NCBI GenBank assembly: GCA_040223695.1
Contig: JAVKFU010000019.1
Span: 124,001-188,000, forward strand
Length of the DNA stretch: 64,000 nt
Origin: Deltaproteobacteria bacterium
Lineage (GTDB): Bacteria; Desulfobacterota_D; UBA1144; Nemesobacterales; UBA2774
Direction of reading: 5' to 3'
In this document: positions 714 to 17,609 of the stretch, in pieces
How the letters are laid out: each line of letters opens with the position of its first letter
Position numbering within the stretch: position 1 is the stretch's first letter
The notes under the pieces: model-generated
Database searches by the model: none
Told to the model about the DNA's origin: nothing
Seen by the model: the letters and a program-made list of their open reading frames with translations, nothing else
Position numbers and translations under genes: made by a program

Positions 714-716
714 TGA

Positions 717-1805: not shown

Positions 1806-1843
1806 ATCTTAAGCTCCAAATTATTACTGGTAAGGAAAACCGG

Positions 1844-2434: not shown

Positions 2435-2523
2435 AGATTATTACCTGACTCTGAGATATAAGTAAGTTATAACATAAATGTGCGATTTTTAAAGGTCGTC
2501 CGGCGTCTCATAATGTAACATTT

Positions 2524-4299
2524 TTAAATGACTAACTCTTTTCTCAGTCTTGAGTAAACGATGAACCCAGACAACAGGGATAGCGATATCAGTATCACTC
2601 CCGGGAAAATTGAACCCAGGAGCAGCTTCCCCACCCCTACCATACCGAACAATATAAAGCCGACTCCAAGCAGCCAGTTAATAATCACCGGGGCGAATCG
2701 GGGTGGGGTTATATCCCTGTTTGTTTCGCTTACAGGCTTCCACCATCCCCACGGGCGCACCCTCTTGTAAAAGCCGCTAAGCGTACTATGAGGCTCGGGC
2801 GCGGTTAAAAATGTAACGAGCAGCCAGGTAATAATGGATACCGGTATTACTATAATCTGATGCTTCAACTCAAGCGGCACTCCGTTTGATTTCGTATATA
2901 TGACCAGAATGAGAATTGTAATGAGTGACGAGGCGAGGGCCGAAATCTCGGACCAGGCGTTTATCCTCCACCAGAACCACCTCAATACGAGCACGAGCCC
3001 TACGCCCGCGCTCATAGCCCAGAGAAATATCCAGGCCTTTCCGATATTATTTATATACAGGGCGAAGTACCCGGCGAGCACCGTTAACAGCAGGGTGCAT
3101 ACTCGCGACGCCAGTATGTAGTGTTTCTCGCTTGCCCCCTTGTTTATAAACCGTCTGTAAATGTCGTTCATTAGGTACGAGGCGCCCCAGTTAAGCTGGG
3201 TTGAAAGCGTGGACATAAAGGCGGCCAGAAAGCTTACGAATAAAAGGCCTTTAAGCCCCGGCCCCAGAAAGTCCCTTATGACCACTATATACATGGCCTC
3301 ATTGTCTCCCATAGCGGCGTCCGCCCTGGGATAAATTATCAGAGATGCAAGCGCCACCAGCACCCAGGGCCAGAGACGGATTATATAATGGTTCAGAGCA
3401 AACCATGCGGTGCCCAGGACCGCGTGACGCTCGTTCTTCGCAGAGCAGATTCTTTGTATGAAATAGCCGCCGCCGTCCGCATTGTGGGACGACCACCAAA
3501 TGACTGTTATATAAACCAGGAAGGCGAAAAAGCTCGAGGACCAGAAACCGTCCGCCACACTCTCGCCGCCGTCAGGGATCATAAAAAAGGAGATATGTTT
3601 TTCGTCGATATTGCCGAGTTTTTCTATAAAGCCCGACAACCCGCCTACTTCCGGCGAGCCTATTACAACCCAGGCGAGTATTATTGTGCCGAAAAGCGCA
3701 ATAAAATACTGCAGGAAATCGGTCAGCGCCACGCCCCAGAGACCCGACAGCATGGTGTAGAAAAACGCAATAGATATACAGATAATAACCGCGGCTAGGG
3801 TCTCGACGCCGAAAAATACCTTAAAAACCTTTGCCATCGCGCTTATGACCCAGCCCATTACAACGAAGTTAAAAAGGGTCGAAAAATAAAGCGCCTTGAA
3901 TCCCCTTAAAAATGCGGCAGGCTTTCCGCTGTAACGAATCTCGATGAGCTCGTTGTCCGTAATTACTTCAGCTCTTCGCCAGAGCCTCGCAAACACGAGT
4001 ACGATGAAGACGTGGCTGAAAAGATAGTTCCACCAGAACCAGTTCTTCCATATGCCCTCGGTCCTTACCCATCCGGTAATCGCCAGGGGCGTATCGGCGG
4101 CGAATGTCGTTGCCACCATTGACGTGCCGAGAATCCACCAGGGGAGATTCCTGCCCGATACGAAATAAGAGGACATGCTGCCGCTTGCCCTCCGGGTGAA
4201 ATAGACGCCTATTGCAAGGGACAAAAGCAGATAGAGCGCGACTATGCTCCAGTCGAGCGGACTTAATGAAGATAGTGCAGAGCCAAGTGTAGTTTCCAC
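2524..4299 (-). CDS. Sodium:solute symporter (SSF family)
   Basis: Polytopic inner-membrane transporter of 591 residues with roughly 13-14 hydrophobic helices and the SSF layout. It has a short periplasmic N terminus, the YFVSGRNLPWW stretch near residue 45, and a Na+-site-like region in TTFAADTPLAITG. The family couples Na+ entry to uptake of sugars, amino acids, nucleosides or sialic acid. It lies 40 nt after nagZ in a line of murein-recycling genes. From that context, its substrate may be a murein sugar or anhydromuramyl compound, in a cluster where no ampG or PTS gene is seen. This substrate assignment is inference from neighbourhood only. Confidence 0.85.
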   Translation of the reverse strand: METTLGSALSSLSPLDWSIVALYLLLSLAIGVYFTRRASGSMSSYFVSGRNLPWWILGTSMVATTFAADTPLAITGWVRTEGIWKNWFWWNYLFSHVFIVLVFARLWRRAEVITDNELIEIRYSGKPAAFLRGFKALYFSTLFNFVVMGWVISAMAKVFKVFFGVETLAAVIICISIAFFYTMLSGLWGVALTDFLQYFIALFGTIILAWVVIGSPEVGGLSGFIEKLGNIDEKHISFFMIPDGGESVADGFWSSSFFAFLVYITVIWWSSHNADGGGYFIQRICSAKNERHAVLGTAWFALNHYIIRLWPWVLVALASLIIYPRADAAMGDNEAMYIVVIRDFLGPGLKGLLFVSFLAAFMSTLSTQLNWGASYLMNDIYRRFINKGASEKHYILASRVCTLLLTVLAGYFALYINNIGKAWIFLWAMSAGVGLVLVLRWFWWRINAWSEISALASSLITILILVIYTKSNGVPLELKHQIIVIPVSIITWLLVTFLTAPEPHSTLSGFYKRVRPWGWWKPVSETNRDITPPRFAPVIINWLLGVGFILFGMVGVGKLLLGSIFPGVILISLSLLSGFIVYSRLRKELVI

Positions 4300-4339
4300 C
4301 TAGGGGGTAATTTACCTGATGAGCATTAAACGGGATAGG

Positions 4340-5878
4340 TCAGTAAAGGCCGATACGCACAGGGAGCTTTCCCCCGGCTTCGCTGTTCCCCAAAAGAACA
4401 TCAGCCGCCGCGGATTGACACGGATTCAGCGAATCAAAAGCGCACATAACGGTGTCGAAACCGCCCATACCCTGTATCACGTATGGTGAGCCGAACGATA
4501 TAAGGACTGTCTCGGCGTTAAAAGAGGCGATCTCACTCAATACGAAGCTAAAAAATTCCGGTAGTTGAAATTGCTTTTTCCAGGCGCCAACAGTCGTATA
4601 AATGAGACAAATAATAGCCCCTCCGAATTCTGAATTCTCCCGGACAGATTCCATAGGGGATGTGAGAGTAACCGGCACGGTACTGAAATCTATTCCCGAT
4701 TCCGCGAGCCTTACTGTGAAGGCCCGTGAAATGTCACTGCACGATCGGGTAACGTCAAAAAGACAAACAACCGCCTTTTCGGAGCCGAGCTTTCCGCCCT
4801 TTACAAGACAGACGGAGCGCTCAGCAATCTGCCCGATAAGTGTATTCGCCTTCCCGGCAGCCGGGGCATTTTCACCCTGTGAAGAGATCAGCCAGGAGTT
4901 CTTGAGCGAGATAATCCTGCCTGCAGAATCATTCAACAACCCCTCGCTCAGCTCTCCCGTATATGCCATATCGTTAATCCGGCTTAAGAGCGCATAAGGG
5001 TCCCTGGGGTCGAGGATAATGTCGCAGCCCGCTTTAAGCGCGAGGTGTGAAAGGTCGATTTCATCCCCGAGCTTATTTATTCCCGACATATGCAGTGAAT
5101 CGGTAATAACGACTCCCCCATAACCCATCTGTTTTCTTAGAATTCCCTGTATAATCACATCGGATATGGTTGCGGGAATGGCGCCTCTTTCGATTTTGGG
5201 CAACGCGATATGAGCGGTCATAATCGAAGCGACTTTTGATTCGATAGCGGCTCTGAAAGGAATTAAGTCGAAATTGGTCAAGTTCTCCGTAGTGAGGTCC
5301 AATAAGGGCATTTCGGCGTGCGAATCCATGTCGGCCCTCCCGTGGCCCGGGAAGTGTTTACCGCAGGCCGCAATACCCGAGTCCTGACAACCTCTTATAA
5401 AAGCCGTCCCCAGACGGGAAACCAGTTCGGGATCATCTCCGAAAGAGCGAATATTGATAATCGGGTTTTTAGCGTTCGAGTTAATGTCCAGCACCGGAGC
5501 GAATATAAGATTGAGCCCACACTCCTTCATTTCTGAGGCTATGTACGCAGCCTCCCTGTAAACGAGCTCTTCGTCCCCTGCGGCCGCAAGGGACATTGTA
5601 AAGGGAAAAATGGTCATATCGGACAAGATCTGCCCCACCCCCCTTTCCGCGTCGCAGCCGAAGAGAAGCGGGGTTTCGGAAATCGATTGAAGTTCCCCGG
5701 TAGCCTCTTTAACAGACCGCCTATCCCCGCCGAATACAATAAAGCCCCCTACCTGAAATTCGCGCACCAGCCTCTTAGCAAGGTTTAACGAATCAGGCTC
5801 CCTGAAATCGAGCCTGGGCATAATAACCTGTCCTATCTTTTGCAGCACGCTGAGTCGGGAAATATCTATTCTGTCCAT
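4340..5878 (-). CDS. nagZ: Beta-N-acetylhexosaminidase (GH3, NagZ type)
   Basis: Glycoside hydrolase family 3 enzyme that removes N-acetylglucosamine from GlcNAc-anhydroMurNAc murein turnover products, normally in the cytoplasm; no signal peptide is visible. The NagZ signature KHFPGHGRADMDSH supplies the catalytic His/Asp loop, and the nucleophile Asp sits in GVVITDSLHMSG. At 512 residues it is longer than the about 340-residue Proteobacterial NagZ. The extra C-terminal 170 residues look like a second, GH3_C-like domain, as in two-domain Gram-positive NagZ enzymes. It stands between anmK (41 nt upstream) and the symporter, completing the pathway murein disaccharide to anhMurNAc to MurNAc-6P to GlcNAc-6P. 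Confidence 0.9.
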   Translation of the reverse strand: MDRIDISRLSVLQKIGQVIMPRLDFREPDSLNLAKRLVREFQVGGFIVFGGDRRSVKEATGELQSISETPLLFGCDAERGVGQILSDMTIFPFTMSLAAAGDEELVYREAAYIASEMKECGLNLIFAPVLDINSNAKNPIINIRSFGDDPELVSRLGTAFIRGCQDSGIAACGKHFPGHGRADMDSHAEMPLLDLTTENLTNFDLIPFRAAIESKVASIMTAHIALPKIERGAIPATISDVIIQGILRKQMGYGGVVITDSLHMSGINKLGDEIDLSHLALKAGCDIILDPRDPYALLSRINDMAYTGELSEGLLNDSAGRIISLKNSWLISSQGENAPAAGKANTLIGQIAERSVCLVKGGKLGSEKAVVCLFDVTRSCSDISRAFTVRLAESGIDFSTVPVTLTSPMESVRENSEFGGAIICLIYTTVGAWKKQFQLPEFFSFVLSEIASFNAETVLISFGSPYVIQGMGGFDTVMCAFDSLNPCQSAAADVLLGNSEAGGKLPVRIGLY

Positions 5879-5919
5879 GAGTTTTCGTATACTACATTAA
5901 CGCCCGGTTCGCCGATACG

Positions 5920-7104
5920 TTAAACCGACCTTCCAAGGGCTATTTTCCCCATCGGCACGGGCCCGGAAGCCCCTGTTACCGAAGGAAGATTCGAAGCGTT
6001 TCCGGAGATAAGCTCATTCGCCAGTATCGCGAAAGCGACGGCCTCCTTCGCCTCGTACGGAATACCGTAATCATCCGTCGTCGAGCATTTGACCCCGGAG
6101 AATTTACCTCTTAATTTCTCCATCAAGACGGGATTTCCGCACCCGCCGCCGCTAAATATAATCTCGTTTATATTCCATTTGGGGGAAATGAACCTTTCAT
6201 ACGCTGACGATATAGATTCCACGGTCAGCATGAGCAGGGTCGTCATGAGGTCGTTCAAAGAAATACTTCCCCTTTCAACCATTTGATACAATTCCTCCGC
6301 TTTTTTCCTGCCGAAAAGCTCCTGCCCGGTCGATTTTGGAGGATTTTTCGCAAAGTAGGGGTCGGACAACAAATTCCCGAGAAGCTCCTTATTTACGCTC
6401 CCCGCTGACGCGGATTTTCCGTCCGCGTCGAATCTCTGTCTGCCGCCCGTGCCCAGATTTATCACGTTGTCCATGAGAGAATTAGCCGGTCCCGTGTCAA
6501 ACGCGATAACGTCGTCCACGCGCTCGGGGATAACGGTTACGTTCGCGATGCCGCCCAGGTTCTGCGCGAGCCGCACCCCGCCCCTTTTCATGAACAGCAG
6601 GTAATCCGCGTACGGGACTAAAGGCGCCCCTTCGCCGCCTGCCGCCATATCCCGCGTCCTGAAATCCCCGACAGTGGTTATACCCGTAAGCTCAGCTATT
6701 ACGTCGATCTCCCCTATCTGCATTGTCGAGGGAACGCCTTCCCCGTAAGAGGGCGGGTTATGATAAATCGTCTGGCCGTGGGAGCCTATCAGGTCAACCC
6801 GGTCTGCGCTCATCCCCGCTTCACCTATGACGGTAAGGGCGGCTTGGGCAAACGCCTCTCCTATAATGAAATTGAGCCCGGACAGCTCGCCGGGCGAGCA
6901 GCGGGGGCTCAAATTATCGAGTTTACGGGTAACCGGGTCTTGATAGGGGATACAGATGAATTTTATTAACTCCAATCTTGTATCAAGCCCGCTTCCGTAT
7001 ATTTTCACGAGCGCGGCATCCACCCCGTCCACTGAGGTGCCGGACATGAGTCCCACAACGTGTTTTTCTTCCTTAGCTTGTAGTGAGTTTAAAATTTGAA
7101 CCAT
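5920..7104 (-). CDS. anmK: Anhydro-N-acetylmuramic acid kinase
   Basis: Converts 1,6-anhydro-MurNAc to MurNAc-6-phosphate with ATP, the step between NagZ and MurQ. The N-terminal phosphate-binding loop is VGLMSGTSVDGVDAAL, followed by IGSHGQTIYHNP, LAQNLGGIANVT and FDTGPANSLMD, and FSGGGCGNPVLM near the C terminus; all are typical of AnmK. Length is about 394 residues. I placed the start at the ATG at 7104; a TTG at 7131 extends the frame by nine residues but has no ribosome binding site, and neither does 7104, so the start is uncertain. It lies 55 nt after murQ, in the same direction. Confidence 0.93.
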   Translation of the reverse strand: MVQILNSLQAKEEKHVVGLMSGTSVDGVDAALVKIYGSGLDTRLELIKFICIPYQDPVTRKLDNLSPRCSPGELSGLNFIIGEAFAQAALTVIGEAGMSADRVDLIGSHGQTIYHNPPSYGEGVPSTMQIGEIDVIAELTGITTVGDFRTRDMAAGGEGAPLVPYADYLLFMKRGGVRLAQNLGGIANVTVIPERVDDVIAFDTGPANSLMDNVINLGTGGRQRFDADGKSASAGSVNKELLGNLLSDPYFAKNPPKSTGQELFGRKKAEELYQMVERGSISLNDLMTTLLMLTVESISSAYERFISPKWNINEIIFSGGGCGNPVLMEKLRGKFSGVKCSTTDDYGIPYEAKEAVAFAILANELISGNASNLPSVTGASGPVPMGKIALGRSV

Positions 7105-7159
7105 GGCAAAGGGACCCGGGTGTATGTACAATCAGAGGCAATAATTAAATTTCAACCCT

Positions 7160-8056
7160 CTACTTAAGCGCCTCGCGCAGATATCCTTTATTTTTCCTGA
7201 GTAGCTCTTTAGCTTTTCCGTGGCTTATTCTTTTCTTCGCCATAACAATAGACGTCTTTACATCCCAGCCGGACGTTTCGAGAAATTCCTCGGCCCTATC
7301 CTCATCCACCTCAGCTATATGCATCACTATCCGCTTGGCCCTGTCCCTCAGCTTCGCCGATCCGGGCTGCACGTCCACCATAAGGTTCCCGTACGTCTTT
7401 CCCAGCCTGACCATAGAGGCCGTGGTCAGCATATTCAATACCATCTTGGTTGCGGTGCCGGCCTTCATTCTTGTTGACCCTACGAGAACCTCAGGGCCCA
7501 CGAGGAGCGAAATAGTAACGTCCGGCAGAGGATTATCCGCCGGATTACAGGTAACCAGAACTACGCCCGCTCCTTTCTTCTTAGCATAGGATACAGCGCT
7601 TTCGACAAAGGGAGTGCCGGCGCTCGCCGCTATACCGACCAGCACATCACCCTTGTTCAGACCCAGTTCCGTGAGCGCCTCCACTGCGTCTTCTCTCGAA
7701 TCCTCGGCGCCTTCCACCGACTGCGTGATTGCGCTCTCCCCCCCCGCTATAACGGCCCGGATCATTGAGGGGTCTGTCCCGAACGTGGGCGGACATTCGG
7801 CAGCTTCCATCACTCCAAGCCGGCCGCTCGTGCCGGCCCCTGTAAATATCAAGCGCCCTCCCCGCTCAAGCCTCCCGACGATTAATTCGACTGCACTGGC
7901 TATATTATCTTTCTCCCTTTCTACGGCGTCCGTAATCGTTTTGTCCTCTGCCAATATCAACTCGACTATCTCTACAGAAGAACATCCGTCGAGACCTGTC
8001 GTGCGGGGATTGATTTTTTCCGTAAGCAGGTGTCCTGTCTTCCGGCCCTCGTTCAC
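7160..8056 (-). CDS. murQ: N-acetylmuramic acid 6-phosphate etherase
   Basis: Cleaves the lactyl ether of MurNAc-6-phosphate to GlcNAc-6-phosphate and D-lactate, the committed step of muramic acid salvage. It is a SIS-domain protein: the sugar-phosphate binding segment reads GAGTSGRLGVMEAAECPPTF (about residues 76-95), and LVGSTRMKAGTATKMVLNM lies further on. Length of 298 residues is usual for MurQ. It is the first gene of the minus-strand recycling cluster, followed by anmK, nagZ and the SSF symporter. The upstream 95 nt separate it from a divergently oriented tRNA-Gly gene, so the operon promoter should lie there. Confidence 0.95.
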   Translation of the reverse strand: MNEGRKTGHLLTEKINPRTTGLDGCSSVEIVELILAEDKTITDAVEREKDNIASAVELIVGRLERGGRLIFTGAGTSGRLGVMEAAECPPTFGTDPSMIRAVIAGGESAITQSVEGAEDSREDAVEALTELGLNKGDVLVGIAASAGTPFVESAVSYAKKKGAGVVLVTCNPADNPLPDVTISLLVGPEVLVGSTRMKAGTATKMVLNMLTTASMVRLGKTYGNLMVDVQPGSAKLRDRAKRIVMHIAEVDEDRAEEFLETSGWDVKTSIVMAKKRISHGKAKELLRKNKGYLREALK

Positions 8057-8110
8057 GGAATTAATTATATCCTGAAGAGGCGCACTTATTAATATCGGGC
8101 TCTGAATTTA

Positions 8111-8139
8111 TTGACTTTTACCCAAGCATGGAATAGATT
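8111..8139 (+). promoter_or_regulatory. Sigma70-type promoter of the tRNA-Gly gene
   Basis: A -35 hexamer TTGACT at 8111-8116 and a -10 hexamer TAGATT at 8134-8139 are separated by exactly 17 bp. The predicted start is about 8146, six bases before the mature tRNA. Seen directly; activity is inferred. Confidence 0.65.
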
Positions 8140-8151
8140 TTTTTGGAGAGG

Positions 8152-8225
8152 GCGGGTGTAGCTCAGCTGGCTAGAGCATAAGCTTCCCAAGCTTAGGGTC
8201 GCGGGTTCGAATCCCGTCACCCGCT
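8152..8225 (+). tRNA. tRNA-Gly (anticodon CCC)
   Basis: A complete 74-nt cloverleaf. The acceptor stem GCGGGTG (8152-8158) pairs with CACCCGC (8218-8224). The anticodon stem 8179-8183/8191-8195 closes the seven-base loop TTCCCAA with anticodon CCC at 8186-8188. The T-arm is GCGGG-TTCGAAT-CCCGT. The discriminator base is T8225, usual for bacterial tRNA-Gly; CCA is not encoded. The gene has its own promoter upstream. Its 3' 44 bases recur at 10589-10632, marking it as an integration target. Confidence 0.96.
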
Positions 8226-8226
8226 C
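8183..8226 (+). repeat. att direct repeat, copy 1 (3' part of tRNA-Gly)
   Basis: These 44 bases, from the anticodon stem to one base beyond the tRNA, are repeated at 10589-10632 with two differences (A8195 versus G, A8219 versus G). Both differences fall in tRNA stems and turn A-U pairs into G-U wobbles, so either version would fold. This is the arrangement left when a tyrosine recombinase integrates an element into a tRNA gene. Confidence 0.85.
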
Positions 8227-8228
8227 AT

Positions 8229-9146
8229 TTATTTAAAATTATCTGCCGGTCTCTTGGAATTAAGCTTTATTGACTGGAGTAAATCCGTAGGATCATAAGT
8301 AAAGGGTGTCTGCTCACATTGTTCTCTCTTGTGGAGAGTCTCCCAAAGCATTTCTGAACATTTTTTCTGGAAACTGTCTGAATCTATATGGCTCATCGTC
8401 TCCATTGCCGCCATATCAAAAGCTTCCTGCAGCGTAGACGAGCCTGAGGCTACAGACTCGGATAGATTTAAGGTGAATAGCCCGTTTGAGCCGTCCATGG
8501 TAAAATAAGAAAACTGGGTTGCCTTGGATGACATCATGAGCGCCTCACGTCCCCGCCAGTCCTCATCACGTCCATGGTCTTTTAGAATATCGGGCACAGC
8601 TGCTCCAGCGTGACAGGCATCTACTGTAATTACAATCTCATCCGCACGCACCTTGTCAATCATGCCCCGAAGCTCACTAGCCGTAATCCACTGTTTTAGC
8701 GCAAGCGCGCTTAGCACGGTAAAGGGTTTCTCCTCTGTCCAGAGAACGAGGACCTCATCCTGTACGGGTTTATCCCCACTGTTTATGTTGGTAAGGTCTC
8801 CGTGAATATTAAAGAGCATAACAACCCTTGCACCCTTAGGAACTTTATCCGCAAACCCTTTTAAACCTTTTTGTAAACCGTCGTAAGTCGCTTGCTCATC
8901 AACAAGAGTAAAAATATTCTCAGAGGGTATATCCAAAGCTTCTTTGACTGATGTAGTAAATACATCGACGTCATTCTTGCACGCGGAGGCAACATCCTTA
9001 GCCTGCTTTTCTAGTAGTTTTGTTTTCCATGGGGGGCATGCAGACACGGCAAATACATATGTATTTTCACCGGTTATTGCCAAGAGCGGCTGTATAAATA
9101 AGCATAGACACAGAGATGTTGCTGATAAAAGAGTTATAAGCCTCAT
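8229..9146 (-). CDS. Secreted caspase-like cysteine protease (peptidase C14 family)
   Basis: Predicted exported protease of the caspase/metacaspase clan. An N-terminal signal peptide (about residues 1-23, ending in LLAIT) is followed by a p20-like domain with the catalytic His in LFNIHGD and the catalytic Cys in TVDACHAGAAV. The usual order and about 60-residue spacing of His and Cys are kept, so activity is plausible. Cleavage specificity is unknown. The remaining C-terminal region (from about residue 200) is predicted helical and has no recognised domain. The stop codon lies four bases from the end of the tRNA gene, so the gene fills the left end of the island. A periplasmic location sets it apart from cytoplasmic caspases used in phage defence. 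Confidence 0.78.
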   Translation of the reverse strand: MRLITLLSATSLCLCLFIQPLLAITGENTYVFAVSACPPWKTKLLEKQAKDVASACKNDVDVFTTSVKEALDIPSENIFTLVDEQATYDGLQKGLKGFADKVPKGARVVMLFNIHGDLTNINSGDKPVQDEVLVLWTEEKPFTVLSALALKQWITASELRGMIDKVRADEIVITVDACHAGAAVPDILKDHGRDEDWRGREALMMSSKATQFSYFTMDGSNGLFTLNLSESVASGSSTLQEAFDMAAMETMSHIDSDSFQKKCSEMLWETLHKREQCEQTPFTYDPTDLLQSIKLNSKRPADNFK

Positions 9147-9289
9147 AAATCTCTCATTTTATTATTTAGGGGAGCGAAGACAGCGATCTGCATTAACAAT
9201 GTTTGAACAGAACAATGTATTGGCCCTTTATTCCATCTGCTGAGCCGAGGGTGCTATCACGCACCTCCCGGCTCGGGTTGGTATTTATA

Positions 9290-9577
9290 TTAAGGAGTTT
9301 CTGTCTCCTTATTTTTATCCCTCTGAATTTCAGGCAATTCGTTAGGATTATCTCCGGCTTTCTCTACCGGCTGTACATTTGTAGTAACCGTATGTGTTAT
9401 CGTCCCACCTGCCTTGATACAGTCCTCCCCGGATTGCGCGAAAAGCTTTACATCATTTATTTCGCAGTACACGCCGTTTGGCTGGTTTGCAGACTCCATA
9501 ACTGCTTTCGCAGATTGAGGTAAAACCATTACAGCTACTAATAATAAACCCAAAACAGTCACTAATATTCTATTCAT
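9290..9577 (-). CDS. Small exported protein of unknown function
   Basis: A 95-residue protein with a clear signal peptide (MNRILVTVLGLLLVAVMVLP, cleavage near AKA-V). A mature part of about 70 residues has two cysteines (VYCEIN and EDCIK) that could form a disulfide, and a Pro/Glu/Lys-rich charged C-terminal tail. I do not recognise the family. A very strong Shine-Dalgarno (TAAGGAGGT) precedes the ATG. It lies between the caspase-like gene and the P460-like gene on the same strand inside the tRNA island; the gap to the next gene of 143 nt leaves operon membership open. Confidence 0.65.
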   Translation of the reverse strand: MNRILVTVLGLLLVAVMVLPQSAKAVMESANQPNGVYCEINDVKLFAQSGEDCIKAGGTITHTVTTNVQPVEKAGDNPNELPEIQRDKNKETETP

Positions 9578-9585
9578 TGATGTAC

Positions 9586-9606
9586 TACCTCCTTAGATTT
9601 ATTTTT
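9586..9606 (-). promoter_or_regulatory. Strong ribosome binding leader shared with the porin gene at 17.6 kb
   Basis: On the minus strand this 21-base segment ends in TAAGGAGGTA just before the small exported protein. The identical 21 bases stand at 17575-17595 in front of the porin. It includes a near-perfect anti-16S match preceded by an A/T-rich stretch. Confidence 0.6.
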
Positions 9607-9615
9607 CTTTCTTAA

Positions 9616-10101
9616 TCATTTTGATTTCTGATATTGAGGGAACCTGAACGCGCGTACCATATCGTCTCCTTTCATATGACAATTCAAACAGACTTGAGGT
9701 TTACCCGCGAATTCCGCCGCCCCGTCAGTTCTCCATTGCATGAATACCCACCCGTCTTCCCGTTTTTCGCTTGCTACTATATGCACAAATTCTTCATCCG
9801 CATATGTTTCCTTTACGAAAAGCGATCCTACAGGCCACTCTTCAATAGGCTCGTTTGCTTCGAGAACCTTTTCAAGGACTTCATTCATATATATATCAAC
9901 GTACATATCCCCGCCGCTTTCACGATGTTGTATTGCGAGAGTTCTTTCTTCAAACCCTGGCGCGCGCGCAAATTGTTTGTAATTTACCTCATGTATGTGG
10001 GCATAAAGTTCGTCTGCATCCTTGAGGTCTTTAAGTGTCATAAAAGATAGAGAAAAAAAGGAAAATACAAGCAGTGCAAAGAACGATAGTCTCAATACCA
10101 C
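9616..10101 (-). CDS. Cytochrome P460-like c-type heme protein
   Basis: A 161-residue exported protein with an N-terminal hydrophobic signal (LSFFALLVFSFFSLSF) and one heme c site, CLNCH, near the C terminus. The body carries DIYMNEV, WPVGSLFVKETY and a GWVFMQW segment before the heme motif, which is the pattern of the cytochrome P460 fold (periplasmic heme proteins that oxidise hydroxylamine or bind NO). The reaction here is not known. The start is a GTG at 10101 or the TTG at 10095, with AGAGG just upstream. It is the rightmost intact gene of the tRNA island. Confidence 0.7.
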   Translation of the reverse strand: MVLRLSFFALLVFSFFSLSFMTLKDLKDADELYAHIHEVNYKQFARAPGFEERTLAIQHRESGGDMYVDIYMNEVLEKVLEANEPIEEWPVGSLFVKETYADEEFVHIVASEKREDGWVFMQWRTDGAAEFAGKPQVCLNCHMKGDDMVRAFRFPQYQKSK

Positions 10102-10588
10102 CTCTTTATATTGATATTTACTGGATAATTCTAGCTTCCGACTCTCTTGGCATAAGACAATACTATAACCGATGTTTTCAACTGGGGGAGAGATTCATGG
10201 TGAATATCAGGATGTTATAAAAGCTGTCGCAGTGGAACAAGATGTACCGCTACTCGAAACACAGGATCAATTCAGCGAGTGTACTGCACCCCTTTTGTTA
10301 AACTCGATTTAAGCTTTTATATGTTTTCCCAATAGTAGAATAGAATGGATATAAATTTGTGGAATTATGTTCAAAACATGAGGGTGATGAGGTCGCATAT
10401 AATTGTTTGTAATGAACAATGATAATATAGTCTATTGTTTTAATAGGAGAGGTGTCCAATAAGGTGTCTATAGTACAGCAAATAATACCAACATAACTAT
10501 TATGACGAATAGTTCAAGATGTCAGAAAATAAAGGCCTTTTCTATAAGATATGTGATTACAGGGATTTATAAAAAAGTGCTGTTTTAC
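10102..10588. other. Gene-poor AT-rich right end of the tRNA island
   Basis: Apart from the short remnant at 10172-10312, I see no gene in these 487 bases. The sequence is AT-rich and ends at the duplicated tRNA segment. It should contain the promoter of the leftward P460-like gene near 10110-10170, but I cannot point to convincing hexamers. This is where a lost integrase gene would be expected. Confidence 0.5.
10172..10312 (+). pseudogene. Remnant resembling the C-terminal part of an SGNH/GDSL hydrolase
   Basis: A 46-codon open stretch reads GEYQDVIKAVAVEQDVPLLE followed by TQDQF. This resembles the common SGNH-hydrolase pattern in which a helix (Y.d.v..vA.e..VPllDl) precedes the catalytic Asp/His loop. 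No ribosome binding site, no other domain part and no homologous sequence is seen on either side, so it reads as debris. The family assignment rests on one short pattern and is weak. Confidence 0.3.
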
Positions 10589-10632
10589 CTTCCCAAGCTT
10601 GGGGTCGCGGGTTCGAATCCCGTCGCCCGCTC
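10589..10632 (+). repeat. att direct repeat, copy 2 (displaced tRNA-Gly 3' half)
   Basis: Matches 8183-8226 at 42 of 44 positions and includes the anticodon CCC and the whole T-arm, but lacks the 5' half of a tRNA. It is therefore not a functional tRNA gene; it marks the right boundary of the integrated segment. Confidence 0.85.
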
Positions 10633-10853
10633 CAACACTTTATTAATATTCACGGTTAGTTAAAGCCACAATACCATCACCCTCATATAAATTGTTTTCG
10701 AATTTAGTGTCCGTACAGGCACTGTCAGTTTTAAATAAAAGCATAGCTATGAGGAGGAATGAAAACAATCCATATGTTAGAATCCTGAGTATTGCCGCGC
10801 TTCCACATGCGGTTGAGTACAAATAAATAAGATTATATAGCGGGAGTAAATTT

Positions 10854-12026
10854 ATGCCTAAGATCACATTTACACTTATTTTATTAGCGTTTCCGGTCTT
10901 TTTTTTGCTGTACTCGTGCTCAAATAATTCAAACGGGCAGGACAATAAAACGAGAATATTCATTTCTACGGACATTGCCGCGGGGCTTGTCGGCGGCTGG
11001 CGCGCCGGACCGGCGGACACTGACGACCCGTATGCCGTTGAACTTATAAGCACTTATGCCGATGCCGAGGTGTTGGGCGCGGCGGTAGTCAGGGGAAACG
11101 ATATACAGCCCGCTGAAATATTCGCTGCTATAGAAACGTTTAATGTCACTCCCGGTTTCTGGAACGGCCCCATACTTAGCGGGGCGGTCGAACCCCTCCC
11201 GACGCCTGACTCCGTCATGTGGACAGGTAGTCCCGGGCCCCCTGAAACTCTGGATGACCTATGTGTAAACGAGGGGGTTCTGGCTCTGGCTAACCTGTTA
11301 ACAGAAAGTAATCAGAAGATAACAATCCTCGCAATCGGCCCCCTTACAGACATAGCGTGCCTGGTTCTAAACTTCCCTGAAACATTGAAGAACATAAAAG
11401 AAATGGTGTATCTCGCGGGACGAGCGCCCGGGGAGGTGCTCAAGTATCCGTTCTCGGACGTAATATTCACCGATTTTAACGTTCAGCAAGACCTCCGCGC
11501 TGCACAAATCGTATTAGAGCAATCAGACATTCCTGTCACATTTATTACATTCTCCCTTTCCTCAAGCACGCTTTACACGAGAGAACAGATTGATTCTCTC
11601 CTTGAGCCTGAGTGCGGCGCAAGGGCCAAACTCCTTTCCCGGGCATCCCAAGATAGAATGAATGACCTGGAGGAGGGTCTCAACCTAAACGGAATGGACA
11701 CATTCGATATAAATGCCGCTTATTACATAGCCAAACCGGAGCTGTTTATATGTGAAGAGGCGGGGTTTGAATTTGTGCAATGCACCATTGGGACGCCGGG
11801 TGTTTATAACGGCGCTGATAACCCATGCGCCGGGCACGGACCCGATCAACAGTCCGGTCTTAACACGGAGAGCGAGCAGCTTTGGGTAGGCCCGACCCTC
11901 TTGGGGAGCAGCCGCTCTGTTAGATCCTGCGTCTCATATATTAACGAGGCCGAGCTCGAAAGGTTTGAAACCGGAACTATAGATGTATTCTGCGACGGGG
12001 GTGTCTGGTCAGAGCTTCCGGAATAA
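10854..12026 (+). CDS. Lipoprotein of the inosine/uridine nucleoside hydrolase family
   Basis: Predicted lipoprotein: the signal ends in LLYSC with the lipid-accepting Cys at about residue 22. The mature part has nucleoside-hydrolase features: ISTDIAAG and DTDDPYAVEL (metal-binding aspartates), LAIGPLTDIA (around residue 155), DFNVQQDLRAAQIVL and DINAAYYIAKPELF. The family cleaves the N-glycosidic bond of ribonucleosides using a Ca2+ bound by the Asp cluster. An insertion near residues 40-50 and a Cys-rich C-terminal extension (about residues 295-385) are not part of the usual about 310-residue enzyme and may form disulfides in the periplasm. It stands alone just outside the tRNA island; its role is probably nucleoside salvage in the envelope. 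Confidence 0.72.
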   Translation: MPKITFTLILLAFPVFFLLYSCSNNSNGQDNKTRIFISTDIAAGLVGGWRAGPADTDDPYAVELISTYADAEVLGAAVVRGNDIQPAEIFAAIETFNVTPGFWNGPILSGAVEPLPTPDSVMWTGSPGPPETLDDLCVNEGVLALANLLTESNQKITILAIGPLTDIACLVLNFPETLKNIKEMVYLAGRAPGEVLKYPFSDVIFTDFNVQQDLRAAQIVLEQSDIPVTFITFSLSSSTLYTREQIDSLLEPECGARAKLLSRASQDRMNDLEEGLNLNGMDTFDINAAYYIAKPELFICEEAGFEFVQCTIGTPGVYNGADNPCAGHGPDQQSGLNTESEQLWVGPTLLGSSRSVRSCVSYINEAELERFETGTIDVFCDGGVWSELPE

Positions 12027-12136
12027 TATATTAAGACCCCGGATAATATTAGAGAACGTTTAGATTCAAATTGTTCCGAGGCCCTATTTCCAAGCTTCAC
12101 ATTATTGTTCCGGAGTCGCGCTATTGCACCTGAGCC

Positions 12137-13210
12137 TCAGTTGCCGCTCTCCTCGGATTGTTCGGCTTTTTCCTGGTCGATCAGATACCTGACGGCGGCC
12201 CTTACGAATTTGCTCCGGTCCGCTTCGCCGAGTATTCCCTTCAGACTGTCGTATACGCTCGGATCGATCAACAGAGCGCCCAGCGTACCCTCGCCCCCTC
12301 TCAGCATTTCGGATACCTCCCTGAAATTGGACATCGTTTCCTGAAGCTCTGTCAGTACCCCGTTCTCGCCGTTCAGCTTGGCGGATGCGGTTTTAATATT
12401 AGCCATTGTGTCGTCGATGTCATTTGACAGCTTGTCATCATAAATCAGGGAATGAAGCGTACCGTCCCCGTCATTAATCTGGTTGAGCACCCGATCGAGT
12501 TTCGCAATTGTCTTATTAAGCTTGACCAGGGTATTCTCGTCGATTTTCTTTCCAGACCGGTCCTTTGGCCCGTAGATCATAGTGTTTAAAATGCCGTTAC
12601 TTTTCTTTATAGCTTCCAGATTCTCCTGAATAGCTTCCGAGCTCGCCTTTACGGAGGCGATTGTTTTGCTAATGTTTTTAATGTTTTCATCTTCGCCGAA
12701 GCCCTTTACAATCTTATCGAGGCTTTCGGAAATACTTATTATATTCGCAAGCAAATCACCCGACTGTCCTATGATGCTCGTGAACTCTACCGGGGTCTGG
12801 CTTTCAATAGCCAGTGTGTCGGGAAGCCTCGCCAGAGGCGGCTCTTCCCCGGGTACTATCTCAACGTATTTATCCCCGAGAAGACCCTCGGTTTTTATTG
12901 TAGCCCTGGCGTCGGGATTGAGCCTCTCCATACCTTCTTTATTAACTTTCATTACAACGTTGATTGTTTTGTCCCCTACGGGGTGTTGAGCGAAGTCTAT
13001 ATTTGTTACAGCGCCTATGCGTACTCCGGAGAGCCTGACAGCGGCGCCCTTTATCAGGCCCGCCGTATTTTTAAAAGACGTGGTAAGCGTGTAACTCTTT
13101 TCAAAGAAACGCTGCTCTCCGAACAGAAGAAAAGCAATCAGAATAAAAAGGCTTAATGTAATAAGCACAAACAAACCGACTCTGAAATTCAGTACCCTCT
13201 GGTTCCTCAT
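12137..13210 (-). CDS. MCE/MlaD-family lipid-transport protein
   Basis: Single-pass inner-membrane protein with a periplasmic MCE domain; the family carries phospholipids or other lipids between the membranes together with an MlaFE-type ABC transporter. The N-terminal helix is VGLFVLITLSLFILIAFLLF. It is followed by the MCE core, including GLIKGAAVRLSGVRIGAV and GLLGDKYVEI, and then about 200 residues of predicted helical coiled coil. I chose the ATG at 13210 because GGGAG stands 8 bases upstream; an ATG at 13282 would add 24 residues before the membrane helix. No MlaE or MlaF partner is adjacent. It is divergent from purH. Confidence 0.85.
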   Translation of the reverse strand: MRNQRVLNFRVGLFVLITLSLFILIAFLLFGEQRFFEKSYTLTTSFKNTAGLIKGAAVRLSGVRIGAVTNIDFAQHPVGDKTINVVMKVNKEGMERLNPDARATIKTEGLLGDKYVEIVPGEEPPLARLPDTLAIESQTPVEFTSIIGQSGDLLANIISISESLDKIVKGFGEDENIKNISKTIASVKASSEAIQENLEAIKKSNGILNTMIYGPKDRSGKKIDENTLVKLNKTIAKLDRVLNQINDGDGTLHSLIYDDKLSNDIDDTMANIKTASAKLNGENGVLTELQETMSNFREVSEMLRGGEGTLGALLIDPSVYDSLKGILGEADRSKFVRAAVRYLIDQEKAEQSEESGN

Positions 13211-13513
13211 ATATTGGTCTCCCGAACTTGAAGCTAACCTGATTAAACTAGTTGTTAATATTGAATTTTGTACTAAAAACAACTCAAGTTAATACTGGAA
13301 ATTATACGTAAGAACAGTGAAATTCGCAAAAGCCGGAATGGTTATCGGCAGTCCGGTTTTGATTAAACACCGCTCTTTAACACCCTTCTATTGGAATTTC
13401 CGGCCATTCCGCTAAAATAATGTTTTTATAATTAGGTCGGAACTTCGACATTCCAAAACTCGCTTAAGCATATAAGCCTTGTTTTCAAACAATTATCTCT
13501 ATCAAGGAGCCGC

Positions 13514-15079
13514 ATGATGAATAAAATTAGAAGAGCAATAATCAGTGTTTCCGATAAGGAAGGCATAACCAATTTCGCGAAGGGCCTCAGAGAATTCGAT
13601 ATTGAAATCCTCTCCACCGGAGGGACCGCAAAGCGCCTTAGAGACGGGGGGCTGGAGGTAACGGATATTTCCAGCTACACGGGCTCTCCCGAAATACTGG
13701 GGGGACGGGTTAAAACACTGCATCCGAAAATTCACGGCGGAATCCTTGCGCTGAGAGACGATGAAACCCATATCGAGCAAATGAACGATAACGGCATCGA
13801 GCCCATAGATATGGTGGTAGTCAACTTATACCCCTTCGAGGAGGTTATAAAAAACGAGGGCGTAAGTCTCGGCGAGGCTATAGAGAATATAGACATAGGC
13901 GGTCCGACAATGCTGAGGGCGGCGGCTAAAAATTATCAATTCGTTACGATAGTTACGCGCCCTGAGGATTACAAGGATTTACTAAAAGAATTAAAGAAGA
14001 ACAAGGGGGCCGTATCCCCCGAGACCAACTTCAGACTGGCGGCGAAAGCGTTTTCCTATGTCGCGCGCTACGCCGCCGCTATATCGAACTTCCTGGGCGC
14101 TATTGAATCGGAGGATGAAAAGACCAAATTCCCCCCGAGCATTACGCTGCATTTCGAAAAAAGGATGAAGCTCAGATACGGTGAGAACCCCCATCAGGAT
14201 GGATCTTTTTATGTGCTGCCGGAAGTAGGGGAACCGTGCATTTCCAATTCCGTTCAGCTTCAGGGAAAGGAGCTGTCCCTCAACAACATTTACGATACGG
14301 ACGCCGCGCTTGAAGCCGTTAAGGATTTTTCGGAAACGGCCTGCGTGATTGTAAAACACAACAACCCATGCGGGGTCGCTACGGACGAGAGCCTGGTGGA
14401 GGCGTTTCTCAAAGCCAAAGCTTGCGACCCTGTGAGCGCGTTCGGAGGGATAGTGGCTTTCAATAGGGAAGTTGACGAGGTCACCGCCTCGGAGCTGGCC
14501 GGCATGTTCCTTGAAGTAGTAATTGCTCCCGAATATTCGGAAAAGGCGCTTGACGTGCTCTCGAGCAAGGGGAATTTGAGGGTAATGAAAACCCCGCCAT
14601 TAACCACGAATAATAAACCCGGCCTGGATTTCAAGAAGGTTGTCGGCGGGGCTCTAATTCAGGATAGGGATTCGGGAATAGAGGATGATTTCAAGGATAT
14701 GAAGGTCGAGACAAAACGCCAGCCTACCGACGAGGAGCTCGAGGCCCTGAAGTTCGCGTGGAAGGTATGCAAGCACGTGAAATCAAACGCTATAGTTTTT
14801 GCCCGTAGCGGACAGACGGTAGGTATAGGAGCGGGACAAATGAGCAGGGTGGATTCTGTAAAGATCGCGACGATGAAGGCGATGCTGCCCACTGAGGGCT
14901 CCGTCCTGGCATCGGACGCGTTCTTCCCCTTCAGGGATGGAATCGATGAAGCCGCCAAAGCCGGAATCACGGCCATAGTGCAGCCCGGAGGATCAATCCG
15001 GGATAAGGATATTATCGAGGCCGCGGACGAACACGGAATGGCTATGGTATTTACCGGATTCAGACATTTTAAACACTGA
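13514..15079 (+). CDS. purH: Bifunctional AICAR transformylase / IMP cyclohydrolase
   Basis: Catalyses the last two steps of de novo purine synthesis: formylation of AICAR with 10-formyl-THF, then ring closure to IMP. The N-terminal IMP cyclohydrolase domain shows SVSDKEGI and STGGTAKRL (residues about 11-40). The C-terminal transformylase domain has LRYGENPHQ, KHNNPCGVA (the Lys-His catalytic motif), DPVSAFGGIVAFN and VQPGGSIRD. Length is 521 residues, as usual. An AGGAG at 13504-13508 fits the ATG at 13514 (or the one at 13517). It is monocistronic here. Confidence 0.97.
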   Translation: MMNKIRRAIISVSDKEGITNFAKGLREFDIEILSTGGTAKRLRDGGLEVTDISSYTGSPEILGGRVKTLHPKIHGGILALRDDETHIEQMNDNGIEPIDMVVVNLYPFEEVIKNEGVSLGEAIENIDIGGPTMLRAAAKNYQFVTIVTRPEDYKDLLKELKKNKGAVSPETNFRLAAKAFSYVARYAAAISNFLGAIESEDEKTKFPPSITLHFEKRMKLRYGENPHQDGSFYVLPEVGEPCISNSVQLQGKELSLNNIYDTDAALEAVKDFSETACVIVKHNNPCGVATDESLVEAFLKAKACDPVSAFGGIVAFNREVDEVTASELAGMFLEVVIAPEYSEKALDVLSSKGNLRVMKTPPLTTNNKPGLDFKKVVGGALIQDRDSGIEDDFKDMKVETKRQPTDEELEALKFAWKVCKHVKSNAIVFARSGQTVGIGAGQMSRVDSVKIATMKAMLPTEGSVLASDAFFPFRDGIDEAAKAGITAIVQPGGSIRDKDIIEAADEHGMAMVFTGFRHFKH

Positions 15080-15264
15080 TTCGCTTTATAAATACCTCCA
15101 AATTGCATTGACCGCAGGGATGCCTTTTTAATTAACCCTCTTTTGTCGAATACAGAGAGCCGCAGCCGTTAAATGCTTGTCCGTCTGATTTCGTCGTCAT
15201 ATCCTCAAACTGCGGGAGTATACGATTCCCCACGGGAGTAAGCCAATTTTACCGCAGGGCTCCT

Positions 15265-15293
15265 TTGACCGTTTCACGTACGTACTCTATAAT
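15265..15293 (+). promoter_or_regulatory. Near-consensus sigma70 promoter for a likely leaderless mRNA
   Basis: TTGACC at 15265-15270 and a perfect TATAAT at 15288-15293 are separated by 17 bp. The next gene's ATG is at 15305, only 11 bases after the -10 box, so transcription should start at about 15300 and leave at most a five-base leader with no room for a ribosome binding site. Confidence 0.7.
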
Positions 15294-15304
15294 CTATTTA
15301 CACT

Positions 15305-15892
15305 ATGAAAATAACCGTGTTCTACGACTATATCTGCCCGTTCTGTTATCTGACAGCAACGAGACTGGACGCTCTAAGCCGGGAATTTGATCTTGAGATT
15401 GACTGGAAGGGGGTCGAAATTCATCCCGAATTTCCACCGCAGGGTAAAAAGCTCTCGAAGTCGATTAAGTCCCTCAAACGAGTAGCGATAATCAAGGATA
15501 CTGCGCTGGAGGAGGGGGAGGGGGTTAAACTGCCGGGCTTTGTAACCAATTCCAGGCTCAGCCTCGAGGCATCCGAATTCGCCAAGACAATGAACCGATT
15601 CAGGGAATTTCATCACGGCATATACGAAGCCTACTTCGTCAAGGGCCAAAACATAGGGGATATGAATATTATCCTTCAAGTGGGTGAAAAAGCGTCTCTT
15701 GAAAAAACGGCGCTGGAAGAATGTCTTAAAAACAGAACCATGTACGACAGAATAGAGGAAAACAAAAAAGAAGCCGGGAAAAACAGCGTATTGGGGGTTC
15801 CCACGCTGTTTCTGGAAAGATTCCCGGTCCACGGTAATCAGTCACTTGAAACATTGAGAAAACTTATTAGAAGGGCCATAGAAAAATCCTGA
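15305..15892 (+). CDS. DsbA-family thiol oxidoreductase (FrnE-like)
   Basis: Cytoplasmic thioredoxin-fold protein of 195 residues without a signal peptide. The redox motif CPFC lies at residues 12-15 in FYDYICPFCYLTA, and the cis-Pro loop appears as SVLGVPTLFL near residue 167. This matches the FrnE/2-hydroxychromene isomerase-like branch of the DsbA superfamily, which acts on disulfides or as a glutathione-dependent isomerase; the actual substrate is unknown. The ATG lies 11 bases after a strong -10 box and lacks a Shine-Dalgarno, which suggests leaderless translation. It converges on the porin gene, with a shared terminator hairpin between them. Confidence 0.85.
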   Translation: MKITVFYDYICPFCYLTATRLDALSREFDLEIDWKGVEIHPEFPPQGKKLSKSIKSLKRVAIIKDTALEEGEGVKLPGFVTNSRLSLEASEFAKTMNRFREFHHGIYEAYFVKGQNIGDMNIILQVGEKASLEKTALEECLKNRTMYDRIEENKKEAGKNSVLGVPTLFLERFPVHGNQSLETLRKLIRRAIEKS

Positions 15893-15907
15893 ACAACAAT
15901 TTTTAAA

Positions 15908-15946
15908 TAAAAAAAACCCCTTCCCTCACATAAGCAAGGGAAGGGG
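15908..15946 (-). terminator. Rho-independent terminator (porin side, possibly bidirectional)
   Basis: A perfect 10-bp stem, CCCCTTCCCT (15917-15926) with AGGGAAGGGG (15937-15946), encloses a 10-base loop. On the minus strand it is followed by a run of eight T, so it ends transcription of the porin gene at 16008-17567. It may also stop the convergent DsbA-family gene, though the plus-strand tail is less T-rich. Confidence 0.9.
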
Positions 15947-16007
15947 CTGTAATTTATAACACCGAGCAGGGAAGCCCTAGAGCATCCTTACTACGATGAT
16001 TTTATTT

Positions 16008-17567
16008 CTATTTGAAGAACTGATCTATGAAGATCATCAGTCTGCCCTGAACGGTCCATGGCGTTTCATCATAGTTAACTCTCTCAGGGTCGATATCGTT
16101 CGCAGCCAACGTATTAAGAGCCTGCGCTTCGAGCAAGGTCTCCAAGCTGTCGCCTGTGAAAACTACACCGCCGATAAGATCGAGGCTAACACCAGGATGT
16201 ATATGCCAGGTCAATGTACCTTCGACTTCTGTTCCCATGTAAGTATCGATACTGTCAACGCCCGGGAACGGATTGTCCGTTTCTTCGTTGAAAGCTACTA
16301 CAACCTGAGGTGTGAAGGAAATTTCGTCTATCAACTTAACCGTTCCCCACGCTCTGGCATAGTACGCGTTGAATACGCTGCTCTCAACCTGATAAATGTT
16401 CGGAATAATGTGTTTGAAAAGGAGATTGTCGAGATTATAAGCAGGGTTGAAGAATATAACACCACCCTCTATCTCATCAGTCGAAAGGTCATCACCTTTC
16501 GCCCAACCGAACTCTGCCCCTATCATTTTTATCGGCCAGCCCGGATAAACCTCGGCACGCGCCGCCCAGATGATGTTAGAAGCGTCTATATCGACATCCG
16601 GAGCGCCGTCAATCGCGATTTCACCCCAGGAACCCTGAATTTCTCCAACGAGTCTCCAGAGGTCTGTCTTAAGATCAAGCAGACCGGAATACAGAGTCAG
16701 CCTGTCAAGAGTAACACCCGACGTGAAGGCGCCTGCGTTCGGCGGCACGCCCGGGTCTGTCCCGTTGAAAGGAAAACTCGCGAAATTGGTCTGGTGAATG
16801 TAAGGGAATACATAACCGCCAAGGGTTAAGTTTACGCCCCCTACGTTAGGATGGTTGAAAATAAGAGCCGCTGCTCCACCGTCCCATCCGTCGCCCTGTG
16901 CCGTGACTACGCTGTTACCCTGCGTGAATCTGTCAGAGACAAATACGAAGGTAATAGAAGACTGCCCAGCGGCAAAGGATTTAAGATACAGGAATCTGTC
17001 AAGCACGAATCCGAGGTCGGAATAAGGATCCCAACCACCGTTTGCAAGAATACCAATACCCCAGTCAAAAGGCTGACGACCTACCCTCAGGAATCCGAGG
17101 TTGTGAGGCAGCACTATGTCTGCGTGCAGCATTCTTACATCGAAAAAGCCCGGATCGTCTATGGCAAGAGGCCCTGTCAGTATAGCACCTCTGAACCTGT
17201 CGCTGAAAGATAGACTTGAATTAACAACCGTGTTACGTCCTCCGAGCAGCTCGGTTGTCGATCCACCCCAAATGTTGTTGTCGAACACATTAAGCTGCGC
17301 CCTGATCGTAACCGCGTCACTGAGCACAAGCTGAGGGGTTAAACGCAGAGTGGTATCTGCGAAAAATATGGTGTCATCATTGTCGTTAAATCCGAGATCC
17401 TGTGCGTTCTGCCTAGTCAATGCAGATATAAAGGTAGCGTTCTGGATAAAACGCGCTCTAGTACGCATGTAACTCGGAAAACCGCCCAAGGTGAGCTCGA
17501 CTGCAGACGCCGGGACGGCCATAGAAAGAGCCAATAAAAACAAAATAAGCCATTTGGCTTTACTCAT
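16008..17567 (-). CDS. Predicted outer-membrane beta-barrel (porin-like) protein
   Basis: A 519-residue exported protein with a signal peptide (cleavage about AVPASA-V, residue 22) and a mature part of alternating polar/apolar strands typical of an outer-membrane barrel. It ends in an aromatic-rich strand (RLMIFIDQFFK). No named family motif is clear; it recalls large substrate-specific barrels such as the alginate-export type. A perfect TTGACA -35 box, a strong ribosome binding site (TAAGGAGGTAAGGAG) and a strong terminator suggest high expression, as expected of a major porin. It is monocistronic. Substrate unknown. Confidence 0.75.
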   Translation of the reverse strand: MSKAKWLILFLLALSMAVPASAVELTLGGFPSYMRTRARFIQNATFISALTRQNAQDLGFNDNDDTIFFADTTLRLTPQLVLSDAVTIRAQLNVFDNNIWGGSTTELLGGRNTVVNSSLSFSDRFRGAILTGPLAIDDPGFFDVRMLHADIVLPHNLGFLRVGRQPFDWGIGILANGGWDPYSDLGFVLDRFLYLKSFAAGQSSITFVFVSDRFTQGNSVVTAQGDGWDGGAAALIFNHPNVGGVNLTLGGYVFPYIHQTNFASFPFNGTDPGVPPNAGAFTSGVTLDRLTLYSGLLDLKTDLWRLVGEIQGSWGEIAIDGAPDVDIDASNIIWAARAEVYPGWPIKMIGAEFGWAKGDDLSTDEIEGGVIFFNPAYNLDNLLFKHIIPNIYQVESSVFNAYYARAWGTVKLIDEISFTPQVVVAFNEETDNPFPGVDSIDTYMGTEVEGTLTWHIHPGVSLDLIGGVVFTGDSLETLLEAQALNTLAANDIDPERVNYDETPWTVQGRLMIFIDQFFK

Positions 17568-17574
17568 CTCTCCT

Positions 17575-17595: not shown

Positions 17596-17609
17596 AAAGT
17601 TCTGAGCTT

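Follow-up and report, generated by a model that had tools for sequence, protein, structure and literature searches.

A reduced island at a deltaproteobacterial tRNA-Gly gene carries a predicted exported caspase-like protease and a probable integrase arm signature

Cis-mobilizable elements (CIMEs) have lost their integration and transfer genes and keep the attachment sites attL and attR (PMC5704250). Fifteen Dehalococcoides islands at ssrA have no integration module (PMC3146451), and islands bounded by tRNA repeats are known in Methylophilaceae (PMC10872708); integrase-less islands behind RNA genes are therefore an already known kind. In mycobacteriophage attP, paired 11-bp arm-type sites flank a tRNA core (PMC3203893). 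Here we describe an island at positions 8152-10632 of a 64,000-nucleotide stretch (the window; contig JAVKFU010000019.1, positions 124,001 to 188,000) from a deltaproteobacterial genome, G000. The island starts at tRNA-Gly(CCC), ends with a partial copy of that gene, and encodes a trio consisting of a caspase-like protease (casp), a small protein (small) and a cytochrome P460-like protein. Most likely it derives, as a reduced and probably immobile relic or passenger, from a tyrosine-integrase island that targets tRNA genes. As shown by genome comparison, the putative distal half of the attachment site (P arm plus core) is kept, the integrase and the tRNA-side P′ arm are absent, and the cargo has crossed between genera as one unit. 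An earlier reading of the window, made from its letters alone and called here the sequence-only reading, had judged a minimal non-autonomous element with periplasmic cargo unusual. The integrase is indeed missing; this part is not unusual as such, since integrase-less tRNA islands are a known class.

Like CIMEs (PMC5704250), the island is flanked by att cores, encodes no integration functions and belongs to tandem accretions at a tRNA gene, and it probably derives from integrase-bearing islands. It differs in measuring 2.4 kb or less, in consisting of one operon, and in keeping the attR arm while no attL arm is recognizable. Integration and transfer genes are absent and the content is three cargo genes only; both cores are present, the P arm stands at attR, and the attL side has no arm motif within 250 bp (best score -15.6 bits). 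The island is best described as CIME-like, and it is not filed as a CIME because attL has no recognizable arm. With the Dehalococcoides ssrA islands it has in common the tandem arrangement, short repeats of an RNA gene 3′ end and a conserved motif just upstream of the repeat, but those islands use a CcrB-like serine recombinase at tmRNA, whereas the family described here has a tyrosine integrase, paired arm sites spaced by 12 bp and many target tRNAs. Tycheposons and the pelagic flexible islands (PMC10872708, PMC11389934) likewise combine tRNA-anchored cargo, tyrosine recombinases and recurring 3′-tRNA repeats in additive islands. They span 4-200 kb and encode a recombinase, whereas the window island has 2.4 kb and none, and it is therefore not a tycheposon. 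The mycobacteriophage attP (PMC3203893) is comparable in its short direct-repeat pairs on both sides of a tRNA-derived core and its lambda-like integrase. The island family differs in its motif, AGGTGTCC, which overlaps the 3′ coding end of the integrase gene and is common to islands at many tRNAs.

Insertion at tRNA-Gly(CCC)

tRNA-Gly(CCC) is the sole tRNA gene that ARAGORN finds in the window. A 44-bp copy of its 3′ half ends ~2.4 kb past it, spans tRNA positions 32-75, starts at the anticodon loop (position 32) and is 42/44 identical (95%), in agreement with the sequence-only reading. Both mismatches are A to G changes, at stem positions 44 and 68, and convert A-U pairs into G.U wobbles; they had been called compensating and are instead pair-preserving. 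The three genes are co-oriented on the minus strand and fill the interval between the tRNA and the repeat, with the casp stop codon only a few bases from tRNA-Gly. The G+C content of the island is 41%, compared to 52% and 48% in the flanking genes. An open stretch of ~37 codons in the spacer after the trio (about 10185-10296) has no Pfam match and suggests a gene remnant. The earlier claim that the island has no recombinase was borne out by tblastn with ten integrases as queries, which detected neither an integrase nor an integrase remnant in positions 1-20000 of the window.

The gene order nagZ-anmK-murQ-tRNA-Gly-mlaD-purH is kept across the taxonomic order, whose other members are represented mostly by fragmented assemblies. 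In five genomes (G006, G001, G008, G016 and G017) mlaD directly follows tRNA-Gly and the distal repeat is absent. Because relatives keep murQ-tRNA-mlaD-purH and five of them have empty sites, the trio was inserted horizontally, with tRNA-bounded ends. The sequence-only reading had proposed a typical attL/attR pair and a comparison of empty and filled sites; the comparison bears out the pair and shows that the trio is not universal at this place. Further relatives carry other inserts at tRNA-Gly: in G005 an acetyl-CoA-synthetase-like gene accompanied by a tRNA repeat of 49 bp, in G010 a 0.5-kb unit that encodes an IPTL-CTERM-like protein and has two or more cores, in G015 a tyrosine integrase gene right beside the tRNA, in G003 short-chain dehydrogenase/reductase and AraC-type genes, and in G014 and G002 a short open reading frame or noncoding DNA. 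The gene names in G005, G010 and G003 were read from translations. The tRNA-Gly/mlaD junction is an insertion hotspot. A GGTTCGAACCCGCTGAGA stretch conserved just downstream of tRNA-Gly (L041/L042/L040) is similar to a degenerate tRNA T-arm and is perhaps what remains of an older att site.

The same three genes lie beside the same tRNA-Gly in G011, which belongs to another genus; some of the empty sites are in that genus. Between G000 and G011 the trio has a synonymous divergence (dS) of 0.24-0.28 and 89-91% nucleotide identity, whereas synonymous sites in murQ, anmK, mlaD and purH are saturated. In 100-bp blocks, identity climbs from 54% ahead of the tRNA to 96% at the tRNA itself, remains at 80-96% over almost the whole trio including its spacers, apart from one block at 69%, and drops at ~10195. 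G011 is without the distal repeat. The low dS of the trio against saturated flanks and the jump in identity at the tRNA indicate that a unit with the tRNA as its boundary passed from one lineage to another.

Table 1. Features of the island and its surroundings (positions in the window)
Feature	Positions	Strand	Basis
murQ-like flank, conserved neighbor upstream of tRNA-Gly	7160..8056	-	
tRNA-Gly(CCC), insertion site; 3′ half is the proximal att core (attL side)	8152..8226	+	ARAGORN; murQ-tRNA-mlaD synteny in relatives
Unit at ~90% nucleotide identity with the tRNA-Gly locus of G011 (DHS20C13), both boundaries sharp	8152..10195		
casp, exported caspase-like cysteine protease (clan CD, Peptidase_C14-like; predicted), 305 residues	8229..9146	-	
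small, exported protein (predicted), 95 residues, two conserved Cys (38, 53), no known family	9290..9577	-	
P460-like, N-terminally hydrophobic cytochrome P460 / c′-beta family protein, CxxCH (138-142)	9616..10101	-	
Island-internal spacer without a convincing gene	10196..10449		
P-arm signature AGAGGTGTCCAATAAGGTGTCTATAG, core motif at 10450-10468; probable arm-type integrase site (predicted)	10448..10473	+	
Distal att core (attR side), 44-bp copy of the tRNA 3′ half	10589..10632	+	
nucH, exported nucleoside hydrolase (predicted), second foreign insert at the same site	10854..12026	+	Pfam PF01156
mlaD-like flank, conserved neighbor downstream of the empty site	12137..13282	-	Synteny; name by resemblance only

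The arm motif and its integrase family

The island contains a feature that the sequence-only reading had not reported, the motif AGGTGTCC-N4-AGGTGTC, 115 bp ahead of the distal core. It occurs as a single copy in the 3.03-Mb genome G000, where base composition predicts 0.005 exact matches. In a position weight matrix the site scores 30.2 bits and the next best place in the window 15.4 bits. The distance from motif to core is 113 bp in G010, 115 bp in G001:C42, and 128 bp in both G011:C13 and G029. With ≤1 mismatch there are 29 motif matches in 58 genomes of the phylum, and 21 of these adjoin a tRNA or tRNA fragment in flanks read by eye. The motif read backwards, used as a control at the same threshold, gives ~19 matches in the 58 genomes. 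The match count alone is weak because of this control, and the claim rests on tRNA adjacency, exact matches and fixed spacing. A motif scan of IMG/VR matched 8 contigs.

Two arrangements recur. One starts with an intact tRNA, followed after 48-73 bp by the motif and usually then by an integrase gene; the motif overlaps the 3′ end of this gene and encodes the integrase C terminus (DTxxDT). The other consists of the motif, about 113-128 bp, and then a tRNA half. The repeat period of the motif is 12 bp, the pattern of paired sites, and a 17.4-kb island in G011:C13 has the motif at both ends together with an intact integrase. The simplest reading is that the motif probably represents paired arm-type sites of the integrase, present in P and P′ arms alike. 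The distal repeat of the window is taken to be a real attachment site with P arm and core retained. A P′ arm is likewise missing at the trio of G011, at the units of G010 and G005 and at a resistance-nodulation-division (RND) efflux island at tRNA-Arg in G001; the last three islands also have no integrase. In three genomes the motif lies in reversed orientation next to tRNA-Arg(CCT) or part of this gene (L126 in G015:C72, L133 in G017:C122 and L134 in G022:C9), which suggests integration via the 5′ half of that tRNA.

Integrases linked to the motif share 41-70% identity in pairwise comparison and make up one family. It includes the G015 integrase beside tRNA-Gly, and relatives of this enzyme sit at other tRNAs. 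A search for an integrase next to the same att core had been proposed with the sequence-only reading, and G015 supplies one. The two tRNA-adjacent integrases of G000 itself, at tRNA-Arg(TCT) and tRNA-Asn, are only 30-42% identical to the family; they belong to a different subfamily without the arm motif and are ruled out as helpers. Six intervals are whole from tRNA to core. Four have no integrase, one (G030:C4) has an 83-residue integrase remnant within an otherwise bounded island, and one has an intact integrase, so that the related islands evidently form a gradient from complete to integrase-less.

With a single 19-bp signature, both attachment-site halves of one integrase family can be recognized at many tRNA genes, as can integrase-less passengers missed by annotation, and the 44-bp repeat becomes a testable recombination system. 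The arm signature linking passengers to an integrase family and the P-arm-only configuration appear undescribed.

Several related islands have features of their own. The complete island of G011 (G011:C13:18600-37600, L145), at tRNA-Arg(CCG), has both arms, the integrase, a DnaB-like helicase and two very large proteins of 1548 and 831 residues without a Pfam match; no transfer genes were seen in it, in a search that was not systematic. The integrase-less 6.5-kb island of G001 (G001:C42:28000-46000, L116), also at tRNA-Arg(CCG), has a P arm and a tRNA core and carries an RND efflux gene (AcrB-type by Pfam) with efflux-like neighbors. Tandem units occur at tRNA-Gly in G010. G004 has them at tRNA-Arg, with casp and small located shortly after a 32-bp copy of the tRNA-Arg core. 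The G004 tRNA-Arg locus also has a 387-bp duplication (L049 1320-1705 and 5967-6352) that comprises a core copy and a small exported open reading frame, a relative of which adjoins a tRNA-Arg core in G011 (L114 7007-7315). An island in G029 (G029:C61:1-12000, L046) has an arm motif that scores lower (21 bits) and a core resembling tRNA-Gly, next to a DnaG-type primase gene and a small helix-turn-helix-like protein, which suggests a phage-satellite-like element.

The cargo proteins

The casp protein has the dyad of caspase-like proteases, HG at H115 and DACHAG at C178, which is invariant in five homologues, as are four further cysteines (37, 56, 263 and 277); it also has a CPPW motif. The window protein has no PF00656 match in Pfam, and homologues at 71%, 51% and 36% identity exceed the Peptidase_C14 cut-off with E values from 3e-7 to 2e-10. 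A low-confidence structure model matches legumain, caspase-8 and MALT1, and a PDB sequence search gave no relative. The PADLOC caspase model is matched weakly (E 9e-6), and the score against the NCBIfam EACC1-associated caspase (NF047832) is 32.6 bits, short of the cut-off of 140. The caspase domain and the HG...DxCHxG dyad of the homologues are shared with Peptidase C14 and with metacaspases, orthocaspases and EACC1-associated caspases. The protein differs from known bacterial caspases in its predicted export, extra invariant cysteines, CPPW motif and partners. Hydrophobic N termini are present in all three trio proteins, and the four extra cysteines together with the hydrophobic N terminus fit casp being an exported, disulfide-bonded enzyme.

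The P460-like protein matches Pfam PF16694 (E 6e-8, 33.5 bits against a cut-off of 27), its CxxCH (C138-C141-H142) is invariant among homologues, and the top three Foldseek matches of its model are cytochromes P460 and c′-beta of Methylococcus capsulatus. It shares these features with the cytochrome P460 / c′-beta family and differs in that its gene lies beside a protease gene. The naming of the trio in the sequence-only reading as a caspase-like, a small exported and a P460-like protein agrees with the N termini, the PF16694 match and the C14-positive homologues.

Close casp homologues within the phylum are found only in G000, G011 and G004. Distant homologues in G013 and G009 are chromosomal and lie beside purE/purK. 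The proposal of an exported caspase as island cargo thus stands for this locus, but exported homologues are not tied to the element, two being at the purEK locus. Neither IMG/VR nor phage records contain casp homologues, and a plasmid search returned only two distant "caspase family" matches with 26% identity. The alignment of small contains no stretch of sufficient conservation to serve as a search pattern for viral contigs. The distribution of the trio comes from one scan of a large genome collection. The order p460-small-casp is conserved in the Methylococcaceae bacterium UBA2778 genome (L050 1884-9780). There the trio follows a filamentous-phage gene of the zot type, is enclosed by direct repeats of 314 bp (3001-3314 / 9467-9780) and evidently sits beside a filamentous prophage. 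A RiboL-PSP-HEPN gene is found alongside it.

G009 encodes four tandem two-Cys small paralogues directly upstream of its distant casp (L058 449-1486). Because both genes occur there without an adjacent P460 gene, small and casp are the tighter pair and P460 the less constant member. The cargo is a cross-phylum set of exported (predicted) proteins centered on a caspase-fold protease, and it offers a route to a bacterial caspase role outside the cytoplasm. The literature searched has no co-mention of cytochrome P460 with bacterial caspases. The trio as a cargo set, and the exported location and partnership of the caspase fold, appear undescribed.

Origin, function and a second insert

In the preferred reading, an island was delivered to the 3′ end of tRNA-Gly(CCC) by site-specific recombination through the tyrosine-integrase family of the phylum with paired AGGTGTCC arm-type sites. 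The recombination would be of the lambda type, at the anticodon-loop end of the core. Either a complete island ordered tRNA-P′-int-cargo-P-core would later have lost int and P′, or the island may be what was left once an upstream autonomous neighbor excised from a tandem array; it would now stay put or move only with a helper. Several points weigh against this reading. No excision or transfer of the island has been observed, the G011 trio has altogether lost the distal half of its attachment site, and the trio stands next to the tRNA in the same P′-less form in two genera, which simple independent decay does not explain. On the cargo side, caspase activity and export are predictions, the structure models are weak (pLDDT, the predicted local distance difference test, 56 and 68), P460 is not always with the small-casp pair, as in G009, and small also occurs alone. 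The recurrence of one P′-less trio with low dS in two genera would also be expected of a working non-autonomous element, in which P arm and core suffice for an integrase in trans and cargo units stack as cassettes behind the tRNA. P-arm-only units with unrelated cargo (the IPTL-CTERM-like unit of G010, followed by a second core, and the efflux island of G001:C42), the tandem units at tRNA-Gly and tRNA-Arg, and the presence of cognate integrases in relatives point the same way. However, G000 has no cognate integrase and only one copy of the motif, accretion with composite excision and subsequent loss of the autonomous neighbor explains the same pattern, and the contigs of the relatives are fragmentary. 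Lambda-like systems, moreover, generally need both arms for excision. A working element is unlikely, and we are equally doubtful of its extension to a phylum-wide tRNA-anchored cassette system, in which the integrases of larger islands would insert P-arm-only units in trans, stack them in tandem and spread single operons between genera. Should P-arm-only sites prove competent, the tRNA genes of these uncultured bacteria would serve as platforms for cassettes. The sequence-only reading had spoken of a minimal non-autonomous element; the island is reduced, but with the tRNA-side arm missing its standing as a working element is not clear. That the trio is an old block, vertically inherited or homologously recombined, with the repeat a degenerate second tRNA, is scarcely credible. 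The trio does have the same chromosomal position in G000 and G011, but dS contrasts with both flanks, the boundary at the tRNA is sharp, the genus of G011 has empty sites, and the partial copy starts at the anticodon loop with the arm motif at a fixed spacing. A degenerate second tRNA of vertical descent, the possibility that the sequence-only reading had set against its own proposal, is ruled out by the empty sites, where the repeat is absent, by the dS contrast and by the arm motif.

For the function of the cargo, the most economical though tentative reading from family knowledge is an envelope module in which the caspase-fold protease would act on, or be restrained by, the small disulfide protein and the P460 / c′-beta protein would handle or sense reactive nitrogen or oxygen species. 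Just as tentative is a set for antagonism, immunity or signal processing. The protease would mature or destroy a secreted peptide, small would be its substrate or inhibitor, and P460 would be an accessory linked by chance. The position of small immediately upstream of casp wherever the flank is readable in close homologues (G000, G011, G004 and the Methylococcaceae), the four tandem small genes ahead of the distant casp in G009 and the inconstancy of P460 favor this set, but the distant casp of G013 has no adjacent small gene and solitary small genes exist. An anti-phage or cell-suicide defense module of the caspase-effector type is improbable. The weak PADLOC and NCBIfam matches and the mobile and prophage-associated settings speak for it, but those scores fall well short of curated cut-offs, neither a sensor nor an NTPase nor an EACC1 partner is present, all three proteins have export-type N termini, and the four invariant noncatalytic cysteines suggest an oxidizing compartment.

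A second foreign gene, nucH, which was also not part of the sequence-only reading, lies between the distal repeat and mlaD and is absent from this place in relatives. A distal att of the nucH unit is not recognizable. The gene is 87% identical over 1.2 kb at the nucleotide level, and 91% at the amino acid level, to a G013 gene (L203) that neighbors phage terminase genes, and nucH is evidently horizontally acquired. Four genus-2 genomes have nucH copies at 65-70% amino acid identity, three of them placed near alr-like genes.

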